Below, in pieces: positions 11,795-52,276 of a stretch of DNA of 64,000 nt. The DNA comes from an uncultured Caulobacteraceae bacterium. Its GTDB lineage: Bacteria > Pseudomonadota > Alphaproteobacteria > Caulobacterales > Caulobacteraceae. Made by a program: the position numbers and the translations under genes. Location: positions 1 to 64,000 of the forward strand of contig CAIQJF010000003.1 of the NCBI GenBank assembly GCA_903872075.1, given 5' to 3'. The stretch's first letter is position 1; the number at the start of each line of letters is the position of its first letter. Below the pieces are notes generated by a model, which was not told the DNA's origin, searched no databases, and saw only the letters and a list, made by a program, of their open reading frames with translations.

Positions 11795-12442
11795 GTGAAA
11801 CAGTTCATTTGCGCGACCGCGTTCGCATGTCTGGTCGCGACCGGGCCGGCCTTGGCCTCGACCATTACCTACACCGCCTCGGGCACGGCCACCGGCACGA
11901 TCGGCACAAACTTTTTCGCCGGCGATTCCTATTCGATCACCGCGACGGGCGACACCGCCACCGCGCAGCTGTGCCAGGGACCGGGCCCGATTCCGGGCTG
12001 CCACATCGTTCTGCTCAGCAACATGCAGATCGCGCTCGGCGGCCTTGGGACCTACACCGTGACGTCTCCCACCGTGTTCTTCGACAACACCAATGGCGGC
12101 CTGATCGGCTTCCTGGAGGCGGGCGGCCCGCTCAATTTCTTCTACTACGGCGTCGGCGCGCCGGCGTTCTCGACCTATGACGCCATTTCGTCCGTCGGGC
12201 CTCTGGGCTTCTACGCGCTGACACAAGGCATCGTCCCCGGCAATTCCGGCCCGGTCCACACCACCGGCGGACTGCTGACCTTCGCCCCGGGCTTCGCGCC
12301 CGCGACGTTCCAGGCCGTCCTGACGACCAGCGTCGTTCCCGAACCCGCCGCCTGGGCGACCATGACCCTGGGCTTCGGCCTCCTGGGCGCGGCCGTTCGC
12401 GGACGGACGTCCGCTCGTCGCCGGGCGATCGCCGCGGCCTGA
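11795..12442 (+). CDS. PEPxxWA-CTERM exported protein 1
   Basis: Exported, probably surface-associated protein of unknown role. GTG 11795 follows a strong purine-rich site (GGGGGAA at 11781-11787). A signal peptide is visible (FICATAFACLVATGPALA), then a Thr/Gly-rich beta-type body of about 165 residues containing one Cys pair (CQGPGPIPGC). The C-terminal sorting signal is VPEPAAWATMTLGFGLLG plus a basic tail RRRAIAAA. The PEPxxWA-CTERM form is common in Caulobacterales and sphingomonads. Unlike the two other PEP proteins in the window it is not rich in Tyr next to acidic residues and has no sulfotransferase neighbour. Confidence 0.85.
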   Translation: MKQFICATAFACLVATGPALASTITYTASGTATGTIGTNFFAGDSYSITATGDTATAQLCQGPGPIPGCHIVLLSNMQIALGGLGTYTVTSPTVFFDNTNGGLIGFLEAGGPLNFFYYGVGAPAFSTYDAISSVGPLGFYALTQGIVPGNSGPVHTTGGLLTFAPGFAPATFQAVLTTSVVPEPAAWATMTLGFGLLGAAVRGRTSARRRAIAAA

Positions 12443-24170: not shown

Positions 24171-24638
24171 ATGAAACTCTCCACGGCGATCATCGCCGGC
24201 TTCGCCCTGCTGGGCGCCGCTTCGGCCGCTTCCGCGGCCATCATCACCGTCTCGGAAGCCTATGACTACGGCACGTACGGCGGCTACGACCAAGTCACGT
24301 TCGAAATCTCGACGCCCGTCGCGCTCACTGACCTGAACGTCAGCGGCTATGACTTCGGCGCGGTTGGACCGGGCGCCTACTACTGGCACGGCGGCGACCC
24401 CTACGAGTACGGCTACACGACCGCGGACGTCTATGCCGCCATCGGCGCCAACACCGCCTCGGGCAGTTTCGCCGACATCTATGGCGACGCCGACTATCAG
24501 ACCGGCATGACGCAAGTCGGCACCCTGACCATCAACTCGGGCGTGCCTGAGCCGACCACCTGGGCGCTGATGCTCCTGGGCGTTGGCGGCGTCGGCTTCG
24601 CCATGCGCTCCTCGCGCAAGGCCGTGCTCGCGGCCTAA
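24171..24638 (+). CDS. Tyrosine/acid-rich PEPxxWA-CTERM exported protein 2
   Basis: 155 residues. Signal peptide STAIIAGFALLGAASAASA, then a body in which about 13 tyrosines sit mostly beside Asp, Glu or Gly, as in SEAYDYGTYGGYD, GDPYEYGYTTAD and ADIYGDADYQ. The C-terminus is the sorting signal VPEPTTWALMLLGVGGVG with tail SSRKAVLAA. ATG 24171 follows AAGGGGC. A TPR-sulfotransferase gene follows after a terminator. Acidic tyrosine contexts are what protein-tyrosine sulfotransferases prefer, which suggests (but does not prove) that this protein is sulfated. Confidence 0.85.
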   Translation: MKLSTAIIAGFALLGAASAASAAIITVSEAYDYGTYGGYDQVTFEISTPVALTDLNVSGYDFGAVGPGAYYWHGGDPYEYGYTTADVYAAIGANTASGSFADIYGDADYQTGMTQVGTLTINSGVPEPTTWALMLLGVGGVGFAMRSSRKAVLAA

Positions 24639-24659
24639 GACCCCTTCGGGTTTTAAGAG

Positions 24660-24694
24660 AACCGGCGGCGCCTTGCGGCGCCGCCGGTTTTTCT
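24660..24694 (+). terminator. Intrinsic terminator after PEP-CTERM protein 2
   Basis: Perfect 13-bp stem AACCGGCGGCGCC (24660-24672) and GGCGCCGCCGGTT (24677-24689) with a TTGC loop, followed by TTTCT. It lies 20 bases after the stop codon and should end the message before the sulfotransferase gene. Confidence 0.85.
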
Positions 24695-24745
24695 TTGCGC
24701 GCCGCGTCCCTTGAGTCCGGCCCAATCCGCGGCGAAAAGGCTCCG

Positions 24746-26659
24746 ATGAGCTACAAGGTTAAGCACTCCCCCGCCCCCGCCCCCGCGCCGGTCAATGTCG
24801 ACGCCCTGATCCTCGATGGCCTCACGGCCCATCAGGCCGGCCGTCTGACCGAAGCCGCCGATCTCTACGCCCGGGCGCTGAAAGCGCGGCCAGATCACGC
24901 CGACGCCCTGAACCTGGCCGGCGCCTGCGCCTTCGCCCAAGGGCAGACCGAGACGGCGATTCGTCTGATTTCCCGGGCCGTGGCGGTCCTGCCGACCCAT
25001 TTCGACGCCTATCTGAATCTCGCCGAGGCGCAGCGCAGCGCCGGACGCGCCCGCGACGCCATAGAGACCTGCCGCAAGGCCCTAGTGGGCAAACCCGATT
25101 TCGTGGACGCCCACGCCCGGCTGGCGACCCTGCTGGGCGAGAACGGCGCCTTCGACCAGGCGCTGGCCCACGCCAGTGTCGCGCTCGCGCTCGCCCCGGA
25201 CACCCTCGAGGCATTGTGCGGCAAGGCCCTGGCGCTACGACGCCTACAGCGAAACGTGGAGGCGGGAGCCGCCTATGCGCGCGCGGTGGACGTGGGGCCC
25301 GAAAACCTCGCCGCCCTGACCGGATGGGCCGCGATGCTGGCGCAGAACGACCAGATCGAGGAGGCCACGGCTCTCTACCGCCGCGCGGCGGCAGTCGCAC
25401 CGGGCGACGTATCGATCATCGGGGCCCTGGGCAGCGCGGTGGAACGCGGCGGCGACACAGCCGGTGCGATCGCCATCTTCGACAGCACGCTCGCGCAGGC
25501 GCCGGGATCGGCCGACATCGAACACCGCCGCGCGGCGGCGCTTCGCGACTCCGGCGATTTTGCCGGGGCGGAAGCCGGCTTCCGGCGTAGCATCGCTGCC
25601 GATCCGAACTTCGCACCGGCCATTCTCGCGCTGACGCGCATGAAACGCTTCGATTTCGACGCCGCCGAAGGCAAGCGACTGGGCCGGCTCATCGTCGATC
25701 AGGCACAGCCGCTTACGCACAAAGTCCAGGCCGCCTTCGCTCTCGCCGAACTGACCGACCGCGCCGGCGATCCGGACGGCGCCTTCCGGCGCTACGCCGA
25801 GGCGAACAAGCTACAGACCAGGTTCCACGCCGAGCGCGGCGAGCGGTTCGACGCACCAGGCCTTCGCGCCATGGTCGAGCGGACCGAAGCGCGCGTCGCG
25901 CAGGACTATCGCGAACACACAGCCGGCTGGGGCGATCCAACCGAGCAGCCCGTCTTCGTCGTCGGCCTGCCGCGGTCCGGCACAAGCCTGGTGGAGCAGA
26001 TCTGCGCCAGCCATTCGGAGGTCGTGGGCGCCGGCGAACTGACCGCGGTGCTGAATGCGGCGCGCCGGATCGCGGCCGCGAATGAGGGCCGCGAGTCCCT
26101 GGCGGACTGGACCCCGGAGGTCGCGCGGACAGAGGCTCAGCGACATGCACAGGCACTCCGAACACTCGGTCAGGGCGCCTCGCGGGTCGTGGACAAGACG
26201 CCGCTGAACGTCATGCGCCTGGGCCTCATCGGGGCGCTGTTCCCAAACGCCCGCATCATCTGGTGTCACCGCGATCCCCGGGACGTGGTCATCTCCAACC
26301 ACACCCTCTTTTTCGCACGCGGCAATACCTATTCCACGGACCTGGGCAACTGCGCCTATGCCGTGCGCCAGATCGAGCGCATGGGCGCGGCCTGGGAAAA
26401 ACATAGCCGCCTGCCGATCCTGCACGTAGCCTACGAGGACCTCGTCGCCGACCTCGATAGCCAGGTGCCGCGGATCATCGACTTTCTGGGCCTTCCGTGG
26501 GAGCCGGCCTGCCTGGACTTCCACATGACCGAGCGGCGGGTGGACACCCCCAGCAGCTGGCAGGTCCGCCAGCCGATCTATTCCAGCTCGATCGGCCGCT
26601 GGACCCGCTACGAAAAGCACCTCGGCCCGATGTTCGAGGCCCTCGCGGCGCCTCTGTAA
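24746..26659 (+). CDS. TPR-sulfotransferase 1
   Basis: 637 residues. About 380 N-terminal residues are tetratricopeptide repeats (for example HQAGRLTEAADLYARALKAR and AHASVALALAPDTLEALCGK). Then comes a PAPS-dependent sulfotransferase domain with the 5'-phosphosulfate loop VVGLPRSGTSLVEQI (Arg410) and the 3'-phosphate motif CHRDPRDVVISN (near 506-517). Glu431 in AGEL lies 21 residues after Arg410, the spacing I recall for the catalytic Glu of animal tyrosylprotein sulfotransferases. No signal peptide, so cytosolic unless recruited. ATG 24746 begins at MSYKVKH. Next to a tyrosine-rich PEP-CTERM gene. The acceptor (protein or polysaccharide) is unknown. Confidence 0.88.
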   Translation: MSYKVKHSPAPAPAPVNVDALILDGLTAHQAGRLTEAADLYARALKARPDHADALNLAGACAFAQGQTETAIRLISRAVAVLPTHFDAYLNLAEAQRSAGRARDAIETCRKALVGKPDFVDAHARLATLLGENGAFDQALAHASVALALAPDTLEALCGKALALRRLQRNVEAGAAYARAVDVGPENLAALTGWAAMLAQNDQIEEATALYRRAAAVAPGDVSIIGALGSAVERGGDTAGAIAIFDSTLAQAPGSADIEHRRAAALRDSGDFAGAEAGFRRSIAADPNFAPAILALTRMKRFDFDAAEGKRLGRLIVDQAQPLTHKVQAAFALAELTDRAGDPDGAFRRYAEANKLQTRFHAERGERFDAPGLRAMVERTEARVAQDYREHTAGWGDPTEQPVFVVGLPRSGTSLVEQICASHSEVVGAGELTAVLNAARRIAAANEGRESLADWTPEVARTEAQRHAQALRTLGQGASRVVDKTPLNVMRLGLIGALFPNARIIWCHRDPRDVVISNHTLFFARGNTYSTDLGNCAYAVRQIERMGAAWEKHSRLPILHVAYEDLVADLDSQVPRIIDFLGLPWEPACLDFHMTERRVDTPSSWQVRQPIYSSSIGRWTRYEKHLGPMFEALAAPL

Positions 26660-49969: not shown

Positions 49970-51661
49970 ATGCCGACGCACCCCGCAAAGCCCTCAGCCA
50001 TTCACATGCAAGCTCGCGCGCTACAGGCTCAGGCCGAAAGCCTGCGCGCCCAGGGGCGGATCGTGGAGGCTCTTGAGCCGACGCGCCGCGTCGCGCTCCT
50101 GCTGCCGGACGATGCCCGGGTGATGTTCAATCTCGGTCTGAACTGCTTCGAAGCGGGACGCGTGCCCGACTCAGTCTCGGCCTTCCGGCGCGCCCTGACA
50201 CTCCAGCCACGGTTCGCCGAGGCGGCCTGGCGGCTCGGACTCGGCCTCGGCGCCCTGGGCGACATGGAGGGTTCGATTGCCGCCCTGCTGCAGGCGGTCG
50301 ACTTCAAGCCATCGCATGTCGAAGCCCGGCTGTGGCTGGCGCGCCTGCTCCTGGGCGCGGGCCGGGTGGACGACGCTAAGGCGCACCTCAAGCGGGCGCG
50401 CTCCTCGGGGGGTAACACCGGGCTGGGCTGGCTCGCGGAGGCGCGGCTGATGGAGATCGCGGACGATCGTCCCGGCGTGGAGCGCGCCGCGCGCCGGGCC
50501 ATGGCCGTGGATCCGAAGAATCCCCTGACGCAGGAACTCATGGGACACGTTCACGCCGAGGCCGGACGCTTCGCGGAGGCCGAACAATGCTTCCTCGCGG
50601 CTCTGGCGCTCAATCCGAAGTCCGTCGGCGCGTGGTACGACGTGGCGCGGGGTCGCCGGTTCAGCGCCGCGGACGCACCGCTGGTCGAGAGGATGCGCGC
50701 GGCCACCACCCTGCCGGGTATCGACCCCCCCACGCGCGCGATGCTGTTTCTGGGACTGGCCAAAGTTCTCGACGATCTCGACGATCCAGGCGGCGCCTCG
50801 GAGGTCCTCGACACCGCCGCCAGGCTGCGCGCGGGCTGGCTGAAGTTCGATCTCGCGGCCTGGCGTCGCCACATCGAGGCGATCATGGCCCGCTTCACCC
50901 CAGAGGTCCTGTGCCGAGCCGCGGATATGGGCAGCCCGGATGAGACGCCCCTGTTGATCCTCGGCATGCCGCGATCCGGCACGACCCTTGTGGAGCAGAT
51001 CCTCTCAAGCCATCCGCAGGTGACCGGCGCCGGCGAATTGACGTTCTGGCGCCAGCGAACCGAGATGATGGCGCAGGCCGGCGAGGCGGGGCTGGAGGTT
51101 CCGTTCGTCTCGGAGGCCGCGGAGGCCTATCTCGCCGAGCTGCGCGGCCTCGGACCTGGATCGGCCCGTGTCATCGACAAGCTGCCGTGGAACTACCTCC
51201 ACATCGGCCTGATTCATCTGACTTTTCCGCGCGCGACGATCATCCACTGCCGCCGACGGCCGATCGATACGGCGCTGTCAGTGCGCCAGACCTGGTTCGC
51301 GCAGCACATGGTCATACCGACCGGCGGCGAAGATCTGGTCGGCTACTACCGGGCCTATGAAACCCTGATGGACCACTGGCGGCGCGTGCTCCCCGCGGGC
51401 CGATTGATCGAGGTCGACTACGAAGCGCTGACGGCCGCCCCTGAACCCGAGATTCGCCGCCTTGTGGCCGCCGCGGGTCTGCCCTGGGACGACGCTTGCC
51501 TGCATCCGGAGATGAACGACCGTGTCGTCAAGACGGCAAGCAAGTGGCAGGTCCGTCAGCCGGTCAACACGGACTCGATCGACCGGTGGCGGCGATTCGA
51601 ACCGTGGCTGGGGCCGCTCGCGGCCCTGTTGGACGAGTCGCCGGCCGGCGGCAAAGCCTAG
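49970..51661 (+). CDS. TPR-sulfotransferase 2
   Basis: 563 residues with the same build as the 24746 protein. The N-terminal 310 residues are TPR-type (NLGLNCFEAGRVPDSVSAFRR, AEAGRFAEAEQCFLAALALN). The C-terminal PAPS-dependent sulfotransferase has ILGMPRSGTTLVEQIL (Arg335), HPQVTGAGELT with Glu356 21 residues after Arg335, and the 3'-phosphate region CRRRPIDTALS near 427. The end WQVRQPVNTDSIDRWRRFEPWL is nearly the same as in the other copy. Convergent with a tyrosine-rich PEP-CTERM gene across a shared terminator. Acceptor unknown; ATG 50006 is a possible later start. Confidence 0.88.
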   Translation: MPTHPAKPSAIHMQARALQAQAESLRAQGRIVEALEPTRRVALLLPDDARVMFNLGLNCFEAGRVPDSVSAFRRALTLQPRFAEAAWRLGLGLGALGDMEGSIAALLQAVDFKPSHVEARLWLARLLLGAGRVDDAKAHLKRARSSGGNTGLGWLAEARLMEIADDRPGVERAARRAMAVDPKNPLTQELMGHVHAEAGRFAEAEQCFLAALALNPKSVGAWYDVARGRRFSAADAPLVERMRAATTLPGIDPPTRAMLFLGLAKVLDDLDDPGGASEVLDTAARLRAGWLKFDLAAWRRHIEAIMARFTPEVLCRAADMGSPDETPLLILGMPRSGTTLVEQILSSHPQVTGAGELTFWRQRTEMMAQAGEAGLEVPFVSEAAEAYLAELRGLGPGSARVIDKLPWNYLHIGLIHLTFPRATIIHCRRRPIDTALSVRQTWFAQHMVIPTGGEDLVGYYRAYETLMDHWRRVLPAGRLIEVDYEALTAAPEPEIRRLVAAAGLPWDDACLHPEMNDRVVKTASKWQVRQPVNTDSIDRWRRFEPWLGPLAALLDESPAGGKA

Positions 51662-51681
51662 CCGGCTGGCCTCCCGTGCAA

Positions 51682-51713
51682 AGAAAAAGGGCCGCCTTGC
51701 GGCGGCCCTTTCC
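51682..51713. terminator. Bidirectional terminator between sulfotransferase 2 and PEP-CTERM 3
   Basis: AAGGGCCGCC (51687-51696), loop TTGC, GGCGGCCCTT (51701-51710), with an A-run before and T-run after, so usable on both strands for the convergent genes. Confidence 0.85.
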
Positions 51714-51736
51714 CAATCGTATCGGTTCGCTGCGGT

Positions 51737-52276
51737 TTAGGCGACCGCGGCGGCAACCTTGCGACGACGGGCGGCGAAGCCGACCGCGCCGAAGCCGACG
51801 AGCATCAGAGCCCAGGTGGTGGGTTCCGGCACCGAGAAGGTGCTGATGTTCACCGGATATTCCAGCGAGAAGTAGGTCGTCGCGCCCGGCGCCACGCCGC
51901 CCACGAAGTTGATCGTGCCATGATAGGCGTCGACCAGGTTGGTGAAGTAGCCCTGCGGGCCGCCGTAGCCGTAGCCGTCATAGGGGGTCGGCGCGCCGTA
52001 GGCGGCGAGGCCGTGACCGTCGAAGCCGGTGATCGGCTGGTTGGTGGAGCTCAGGTTGATCGAATAGATCGTGTTGGAGGAGTTGTTGACCACGCCGACA
52101 TAGGTGTCTTCAACGCCGTCGTACGGGCCTTGGCCGGTGTTCGAGCTCTGGACGCCGCTGTTGGTGAAGGTGAGGATGACGGCCGGGCCGCTGTCGTTGC
52201 CGTACGCCGGAAACGCGTGCGCGGCGCCGGCCAAAGCCGTGGCGGCGAGAGCCGTGCTGATGAGAAGAGTCTTCAT
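51737..52276 (-). CDS. Tyrosine-rich PEPxxWA-CTERM exported protein 3
   Basis: 179 residues. Signal peptide TLLISTALAATALAGAAHA. The body has Tyr beside acidic or Gly residues (GPYDGVEDTYVG, TPYDGYGYGG, LVDAYHG). The sorting signal is VPEPTTWALMLVGFGAVG with a basic tail ARRRKVAAAVA. ATG 52276 is used since the signal peptide starts there; an upstream start at 52306 would add ten residues. Convergent with TPR-sulfotransferase 2. Role unknown; candidate sulfation target by analogy with the 24171 protein. Confidence 0.85.
   Translation of the reverse strand: MKTLLISTALAATALAGAAHAFPAYGNDSGPAVILTFTNSGVQSSNTGQGPYDGVEDTYVGVVNNSSNTIYSINLSSTNQPITGFDGHGLAAYGAPTPYDGYGYGGPQGYFTNLVDAYHGTINFVGGVAPGATTYFSLEYPVNISTFSVPEPTTWALMLVGFGAVGFAARRRKVAAAVA

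Follow-up and report, generated by a model that had tools for sequence, protein, structure and literature searches.

A conserved pair of a tyrosine-rich PEPxxWA-CTERM protein and a TPR-sulfotransferase in Caulobacteraceae: a candidate for bacterial protein-tyrosine sulfation

Which molecule receives the sulfate when the gene for a bacterial sulfotransferase (ST) lies directly beside that of a small exported protein rich in tyrosine? This question is raised by a locus in a 64,000-nucleotide stretch of DNA (the window) from an uncultured Caulobacteraceae bacterium (GenBank assembly GCA_903872075.1, contig CAIQJF010000003.1, positions 1 to 64,000). There, the gene for the exported protein, PEP1, is followed on the same strand by that for ST1, in which tetratricopeptide repeats (TPR), similar to those of O-GlcNAc transferase (OGT) and SPINDLY (SPY), precede a catalytic domain that resembles tyrosylprotein sulfotransferases (TPSTs) and contains a loop for the sulfate donor 3'-phosphoadenosine-5'-phosphosulfate (PAPS). 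The parts of this arrangement (pair 1) are the following:

24171..24638, + strand: PEP1, an exported PEPxxWA-CTERM protein of 155 aa, rich in Tyr and acidic residues, its mature part without Lys or Arg
24255..24290, + strand: N-terminal Tyr/acid cluster of PEP1, EAYDYGTYGGYD, residues 29-40, containing E-x-Y-x-Y
24543..24608, + strand: PEPxxWA-CTERM sorting signal of PEP1, residues 125-146 (NF035944)
24746..26659, + strand: ST1, a TPR-sulfotransferase of 637 aa, ATG at 24746
24797..25639, + strand: ST1's TPR superhelix, similar to that of OGT/SPY, approximately residues 18-298
25934..26656, + strand: catalytic domain of ST1, residues 397-637, predicted TPST-like fold
25973-25975, + strand: PAPS-loop Arg410 of ST1, in the catalytic domain
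26036-26038, + strand: Glu431 of ST1, in the catalytic domain

We tentatively suggest that ST1 is a cytosolic, TPR-docked enzyme dedicated to PEP1, and that it sulfates tyrosines of its neighbour before the latter is exported. Tyrosine sulfation of the neighbour is the most economical reading of three features: the dedicated adjacency of the two genes, the tyrosine enrichment of the partner and the TPST-like fold of the enzyme. The weakest step in this argument is the acceptor residue.

PEP1 possesses an evident signal peptide (judged by eye) and matches NF035944 with 43.3 bits (cut-off 35). Its genome contains one exosortase match (PF09721, 5.6e-59) and about 59 PEPxxWA matches (E<=1e-4), and both marks of a PEPxxWA-CTERM substrate, the NF035944 signal and an exosortase, are hence present. 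The mature part, 103 residues in length, comprises 13 Tyr, 12 Asp or Glu and no Lys or Arg. An acidic residue is found at most two positions away from nine of these tyrosines (mean of 20,000 shuffles 5.1; P=0.028), eight satisfy a broader acid score (P=0.054), and three carry an acid at position -1 (P=0.17, all by shuffling); the acids that flank the tyrosines surpass the expectation from composition only modestly. Two orthologues of PEP1 are 47% and 40% identical to it over the whole protein, and the E-x-Y-x-Y motif that follows the signal peptide is invariant among the three.

ST1 matches PF13469 at 6.9e-43 as well as several TPR models and is thus a TPR-fused Sulfotransfer_3 enzyme; the first-pass annotation, which had described a Tyr-rich, acid-flanked exported PEPxxWA-CTERM protein beside a TPR-sulfotransferase, was accurate in this respect, and the sequence is as quoted there. 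An AlphaFold model of full-length ST1 has a mean predicted local distance difference test score (pLDDT) of 94.3, and in its top Foldseek matches the TPR part resembles OGT and SPINDLY. Since comparisons with the full-length model were swamped by TPR chains, the catalytic domain was modelled separately (pLDDT 90.0). Its nearest neighbours are seven listed TPST entries (Z 22.0-22.8 over 235-241 residues), followed by the olefin-synthase and curacin (polyketide) sulfotransferases (Z 18.2 and 17.8), the heparan 3-O-sulfotransferases (Z 14.1), NDST (13.0) and the SULTs (about 12), a ranking that covers the families listed among the 988 aligned chains, so that other families could still be closer. 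A family profile searched against solved structures gave the same order, with TPSTs at E 3e-24 to 7e-21 and the next family at 5e-12. In the predicted model, the closest solved fold for the catalytic domain of ST1 is that of TPST. Because the alignments behind the ST1 models hold TPR-STs at large, this relation is a property of the family and alone is no proof of a tyrosine acceptor.

Arg410, Glu431, Lys484, Arg509 and Tyr563 are invariant in all 65 rows of the ST alignment, and Ser517 is kept in 63 of them; because the rows were picked by their PAPS-loop motif, only the invariance of the Glu, and not that of the Arg, is unforced. In an ungapped alignment of the family profile to TPST1 and the tick TPST, the column of Glu431 coincides with the second Glu of the GEET motif, which we take to be Glu99 of TPST2, whereas a single-sequence alignment to TPST2 contains a one-residue gap and pairs Glu431 with the first Glu instead. 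The distance of 21 residues between Arg410 and Glu431 had initially been read as a match to TPST. While the spacing exists and the profile aligns without a gap, the specificity that was attached to it does not hold: a Glu at +21 from the loop Arg is present in 59 of the 66 recognised STs of the genus, which rules it out as a TPST signature and makes the Arg/Glu spacing a mark of the superfamily, not of tyrosine specificity. ST1 is a TPR-fused Sulfotransfer_3 enzyme that probably works like a TPST, which is not to call it a proven TPST.

Orthologues of ST1 (E<=1e-100) were detected in three of the 299 family genomes that were sampled from a larger group, with four candidates scored in each; the three are the genome of the window (G000) and the congeners G007 and G015. 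In all three (the own genome and 2/2 congeners), the gene that immediately precedes ST1, in the same orientation, encodes an orthologue of PEP1. Genomic linkage in relatives, on which the first-pass annotation had made its proposal depend, is therefore found, and other pairs of an ST with a PEPxxWA gene exist as well. The pair is inverted relative to radC and the glutathione S-transferase (GST) gene in G015, and stands beside other genes in G007. A profile built from the three PEP1 proteins scores them at 2.8e-77 to 9.9e-70 (high by construction), and among the matches listed no comparable PEP1 occurs in the other 296 genomes: the next one (G095) reaches 8.9e-14 over model positions 24-149, and many of the weaker matches listed span mainly the C-terminal part. 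The wide genome searches scored 3-13 candidates per genome, and absences there are no proof. The next relative of ST1 in the genus is that of G003 (38% over residues 203-635); it does not neighbour a PEPxxWA gene, and G003 gave no PEPxxWA match.

A second pair is present in the window:

49970..51661, + strand: ST2, the TPR-sulfotransferase of pair 2, clade B, its ATG read from the 49910 open reading frame (searches used the sequence from 49976 onward)
51737..52276, - strand: PEP2, a PEPxxWA-CTERM protein, convergent with ST2

Across its own genome, a PEPxxWA gene touches four of ten full STs (0.279 expected, P=2e-4), a count that omits two partial PF13469 matches (C83 and C85); a fifth full ST is separated from a PEPxxWA gene by the gene of one exported protein of some 430 residues. 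Over the eight genus genomes that contain PEPxxWA genes, such a gene adjoins 8 of the 58 STs recognised, where 1.16 would be expected (P=3e-5; a Poisson expectation, conservative in using 63 STs, at an assumed density of one gene in 1,030 bases). When orthologous sets are counted once, five independent linked types remain (P=0.007), and STs touch PEPxxWA genes more often than do other genes of the same stretches (8/58 vs 20/436, Fisher P=0.01). The regions beyond the own genome represent 52 STs, among the matches listed, of seven other PEPxxWA-containing genus genomes, plus some from four genomes that lack PEPxxWA. Of the 66 open reading frames recognised by the ST finder, 58 lie in PEPxxWA-containing genomes; it missed STs in L105, L124, L126, L128, L142 and L143. 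Cases with one intervening gene (L050, L140, L141, L100) were regarded as near and not scored as linked.

In a tree of 65 of the 66 rows, which carries a long-branch warning, linked STs occupy clade A (3/3), clade B (4/6) and a single row of clade C, which requires at least four changes. The partners of different pairs mostly lack BLAST similarity to one another; the related partners at C35 (G000) and C149 (G015), with 30% identity (1e-10), share the same divergent order. Another type of direct pair and a triple, in which a protein of 430 aa separates the ST from the PEPxxWA gene, are each kept in two genomes, the triple in G000 and G015 with PEP proteins that are 64% identical. Proteins of about 430 aa directly after clade C STs (L050:4616-6010, L140:5453-6787 and L119:3279-4622) are alike by eye and are followed by a PEPxxWA gene in G000 and G015, not in G011; the one at L050 has a signal-like start and a HELGE motif, and a Pfam scan of the L050 and L140 proteins returned no match.

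Tyrosine content provides the link from adjacency to a possible acceptor. Among 57 PEP-type open reading frames of the own genome, PEP1 ranks first and PEP2 second in tyrosine fraction, in a set of which a few members are fragments or false hits (L046, L009) and which a stricter tail filter reduced to 18. In total, 59 PEPxxWA proteins were compared by one-sided tests, eight linked to an ST, two near one and 49 unlinked, omitting open reading frames with a mature part below 60 residues, a weak signal score or no PEP start. The tyrosine fraction of linked proteins exceeds that of unlinked ones (0.073 vs 0.042, P=0.003), as does the density of acidic tyrosines (P=0.0002), and both differences persist when the two near pairs are added (P=0.004 and 0.003, respectively). 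No difference was found in Asp/Glu content (P=0.60), nor, at the 5% level, in Ser, Thr, Asn, Trp or Phe content. Restricting the comparison to the own genome, with its four partners that are mutually without BLAST similarity, gave P=0.002 for the fraction and 0.003 for the density; excluding the two proteins of the window gave 0.025 and 0.002. Against unlinked proteins shorter than 200 residues, the corresponding values are 0.006 and 0.0007 for all linked proteins, and 0.045 and 0.005 with the window proteins excluded.

A hairpin separates the two genes of pair 1:

24657..24692, + strand: hairpin between PEP1 and ST1, 16 GC-rich pairs followed by a T tract

A similar hairpin occurs in the G015 pair and a weaker one in the G007 pair; a scan with a consensus terminator model reported no terminator between PEP1 and ST1. 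The hairpin is compatible with more client than enzyme being produced. Another strong GC hairpin is found between the convergent ST2 and PEP2 genes (51655-51740). The window holds a third PEPxxWA-type gene (11795-12442), of ordinary tyrosine content (0.044) and without an ST neighbour. Nine proteins that flank pairs 1 and 2 were scanned and fall into the SfsA, M24 peptidase, RadC, GST, major facilitator superfamily (MFS), nitronate monooxygenase, EF-Tu-type GTPase, alpha/beta hydrolase and cytochrome b561 families. None of these nine corresponds to a gene for glycan synthesis, a glycosyltransferase, secretion (including RaxA/RaxB) or an integrase.

Several observations weigh against sulfation of a dedicated neighbour. 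All eight linked STs reside in three of the eight PEPxxWA-containing genomes (G000, four; G007, one; G015, three), and no linkage was seen among the STs examined in G001, G002, G010, G011 and G013. Relatives of ST2 have a PEPxxWA neighbour at only two of seven loci, and STs are also present in the eight of 16 genus genomes that lack PEPxxWA matches. Linkage was found at none of 30 loci of a sister genus and none of 29 class-wide loci (best-scoring loci, 1.5-kb flanks), and at one of 79 wider loci with flanks of up to 6 kb; the class-wide and wider sets are weak controls, as the PEPxxWA genes per genome are uncounted there. Linkage as a general trait of TPR-STs is ruled out by these counts (1/79, 0/30, 0/29 and 2/7). 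The sole linked case among the wider loci is a canonical PEP-CTERM-like gene with a PEPASAVLF tail (L161:1248-1805; Tyr 0.015), which lies convergent to the gene of a TPR-sulfotransferase in the metagenome-assembled genome of an unrelated proteobacterium. As to tyrosine, exclusion of clade A and PEP2 leaves four linked proteins, for which P rises to 0.17 for the fraction and 0.02 for the density (0.23 and 0.045 against unlinked proteins shorter than 200 residues), so that tyrosine fraction is weak as a trait of all linked proteins. The partners at L132 (0.038) and L135 (0.032) and that of the near pair L140 (0.040) have ordinary tyrosine fractions (unlinked median 0.042), and tyrosine-rich proteins without an ST neighbour exist (L059, L060, L058). 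Moreover, the pair was first picked partly for its tyrosines, a selection bias that the leave-out tests remove only partly. Tyrosine-richness is strong in pairs 1 and 2; elsewhere it is only a trend. With respect to the enzyme, the Arg residues that follow the Glu at +2 and +6 in TPST, presumably R101 and R105 of TPST2 with a role in substrate binding, are not kept: ST1 has Thr433 and Asn437, and Arg is present at +2 in 9 and at +6 in 11 of the 65 rows. Finally, inspection by eye reveals no signal peptide on ST1, a seemingly cytosolic enzyme with an exported partner.

According to a rival explanation, ST1 acts elsewhere, on a polysaccharide, a lipid, a small molecule or another protein, its PEPxxWA neighbour being a co-regulated envelope gene or there by chance. 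PEPxxWA genes are abundant in the own genome, such a neighbour is missing from 50 of the 58 STs recognised in genus genomes with PEPxxWA, 28 of 66 STs lie near a long Tyr-rich open reading frame under a crude rule for TonB receptors (Pfam agreed in 3/3 tested), and the model NodProtNoeE, for a nodulation protein, matches ST1 weakly. Chance is itself improbable in view of the own-genome count (P=2e-4), and pair 1 has survived inversion and relocation; nor would an inherited operon explain the linkage, and a shared operon is ruled out as its sole cause, given the convergent order of pair 2 and C62 and the divergent one of C35. On balance, we consider a substrate elsewhere unlikely, albeit with a real chance of being correct.

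If PEP1 is the client, its modification might still occur off tyrosine, at Ser, Thr or Asn side chains or on a glycan of the exported protein. The firm linkage of partners that vary in tyrosine content would fit such a case, as would the loss of the TPST Arg at +2/+6 and the fact that carbohydrate sulfotransferases, such as the heparan sulfate 3-O-sulfotransferases, share the fold. However, acidic-Tyr density separates linked from unlinked proteins where Ser, Thr and Asn content does not, in similarity to the ST1 domain TPSTs exceed the listed carbohydrate enzymes by some 8 Z units, and a glycosyltransferase is absent among the nine flanking proteins scanned; we therefore judge an acceptor other than tyrosine to be rather improbable. 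That TPR-ST and PEPxxWA genes merely form a mobile or lineage-specific accessory cassette with no enzyme-substrate relation is very unlikely in our view. The patchy spread (pair 1 in 3/299) and the differing locations speak for it; against it, the partners of different ST clades are largely unrelated and lie in varied orientation, contrary to what one hitch-hiking cassette would predict, and no integrase was found among the nine neighbours scanned around pairs 1 and 2.

Sulfation of PEP1 tyrosines by ST1 might proceed as follows. The TPR superhelix of ST1 would grip the unfolded PEP1 precursor, a mode of binding for which the TPR superhelix of OGT is a precedent. The TPST-like domain would then move sulfate from PAPS to acid-flanked tyrosines, chiefly those of the conserved E-x-Y-x-Y after the signal peptide, with Arg410 of the PAPS loop, Glu431 as the base, Lys484 and Ser517 serving in catalysis (roles assigned by analogy with TPST). 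PAPS is synthesized in the cytosol, and the genome has one match for APS kinase; with the donor in this compartment and no signal peptide visible on ST1, sulfate transfer would precede export via Sec. The sulfated precursor would subsequently be exported and sorted by the one exosortase detected in the genome, to yield a strongly anionic surface protein. From the tyrosine-sulfation system envisaged at first, the TPST-nearest fold and profile and the enrichment of linked proteins in acidic tyrosines have thus been borne out, tyrosine-richness as a rule for all partners has not, and both the tyrosine acceptor and the cytosolic timing are inferred.

How does such a system compare with known ones? 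OGT and SPINDLY modify intracellular proteins. As in ST1, a long TPR superhelix at the N-terminus precedes their enzymatic part, but the catalytic domain of ST1 is a sulfotransferase and not a glycosyltransferase. RaxST, a short enzyme, lacks TPR and is encoded in a locus together with the type I secretion genes RaxAB. In its partner, pair 1 differs from RaxST/RaxX, as PEP1 has a signal peptide and a PEPxxWA signal, and no secretion gene is present among the nine flanking proteins. Two papers (PMC9372746; PMC6637879) describe Xanthomonas RaxST as acting on RaxX before secretion, and the resemblance consists in a bacterial cytosolic enzyme encoded beside the gene of an exported, Tyr-bearing substrate. 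The metazoan TPSTs (TPST1/TPST2 and the tick enzyme; PDB 5wrj, 3ap1, 8w5z) are nearest to ST1 among solved sequences and folds, with the PAPS-loop Arg, the Glu at +21 and an aligned Lys in common; ST1 deviates from them in the Arg at +2/+6, in its TPR fusion and in that no membrane anchor is seen, and its tyrosine activity is a prediction. With regard to PEP-CTERM/exosortase sorting (NF035944, PF07589, PF09721), PEP1 carries the signal and the genome has the exosortase; the dedicated neighbouring sulfotransferase sets it apart. In open-licence papers, we found no link described between PEP-CTERM proteins, sulfotransferases and tyrosine, nor any substrates of TPR-sulfotransferases.

A much broader proposal, which we regard as doubtful, is that TPR-fused Sulfotransfer_3 enzymes are protein-tyrosine sulfotransferases, forming a large bacterial class that has so far gone unrecognised, and grip unfolded precursors through an OGT-like TPR superhelix, with different clades dedicated to different adjacent exported clients such as PEPxxWA proteins or TonB-dependent receptors. 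PF13469 matches are present in all 16 genus genomes, and relatives occur in other proteobacteria and in planctomycetes.

Some further loci are recorded here in their own right. Other STs of the own genome lie near or beside TonB-dependent receptor genes, a second type of exported neighbour, at L043:5342-10080, L046:5655-10787 and L047:15-7102 (the three Pfam-confirmed cases; the crude size-and-Tyr rule is the one that flags 28/66), and the STs of L043 and L046 belong to a P-R-S-G-S-T-L clade. At L047:5477-8814, a TPR-sulfotransferase is directly followed by a TPR-2-oxoglutarate-Fe(II) oxygenase (PF13759), with the TonB receptor upstream, and L047 is thus a cluster of TPR-docked modifying enzymes.

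RaxX is, to our knowledge, essentially the only bacterial protein with established tyrosine sulfation. The conserved enzyme-client pair described here stands in a setting other than that of RaxX, and its small, specific client makes the question raised by this locus testable. If true, the sulfation of PEP1 by ST1 would point to a possible function of the TPR-fused sulfotransferases, a family that is common in bacteria.

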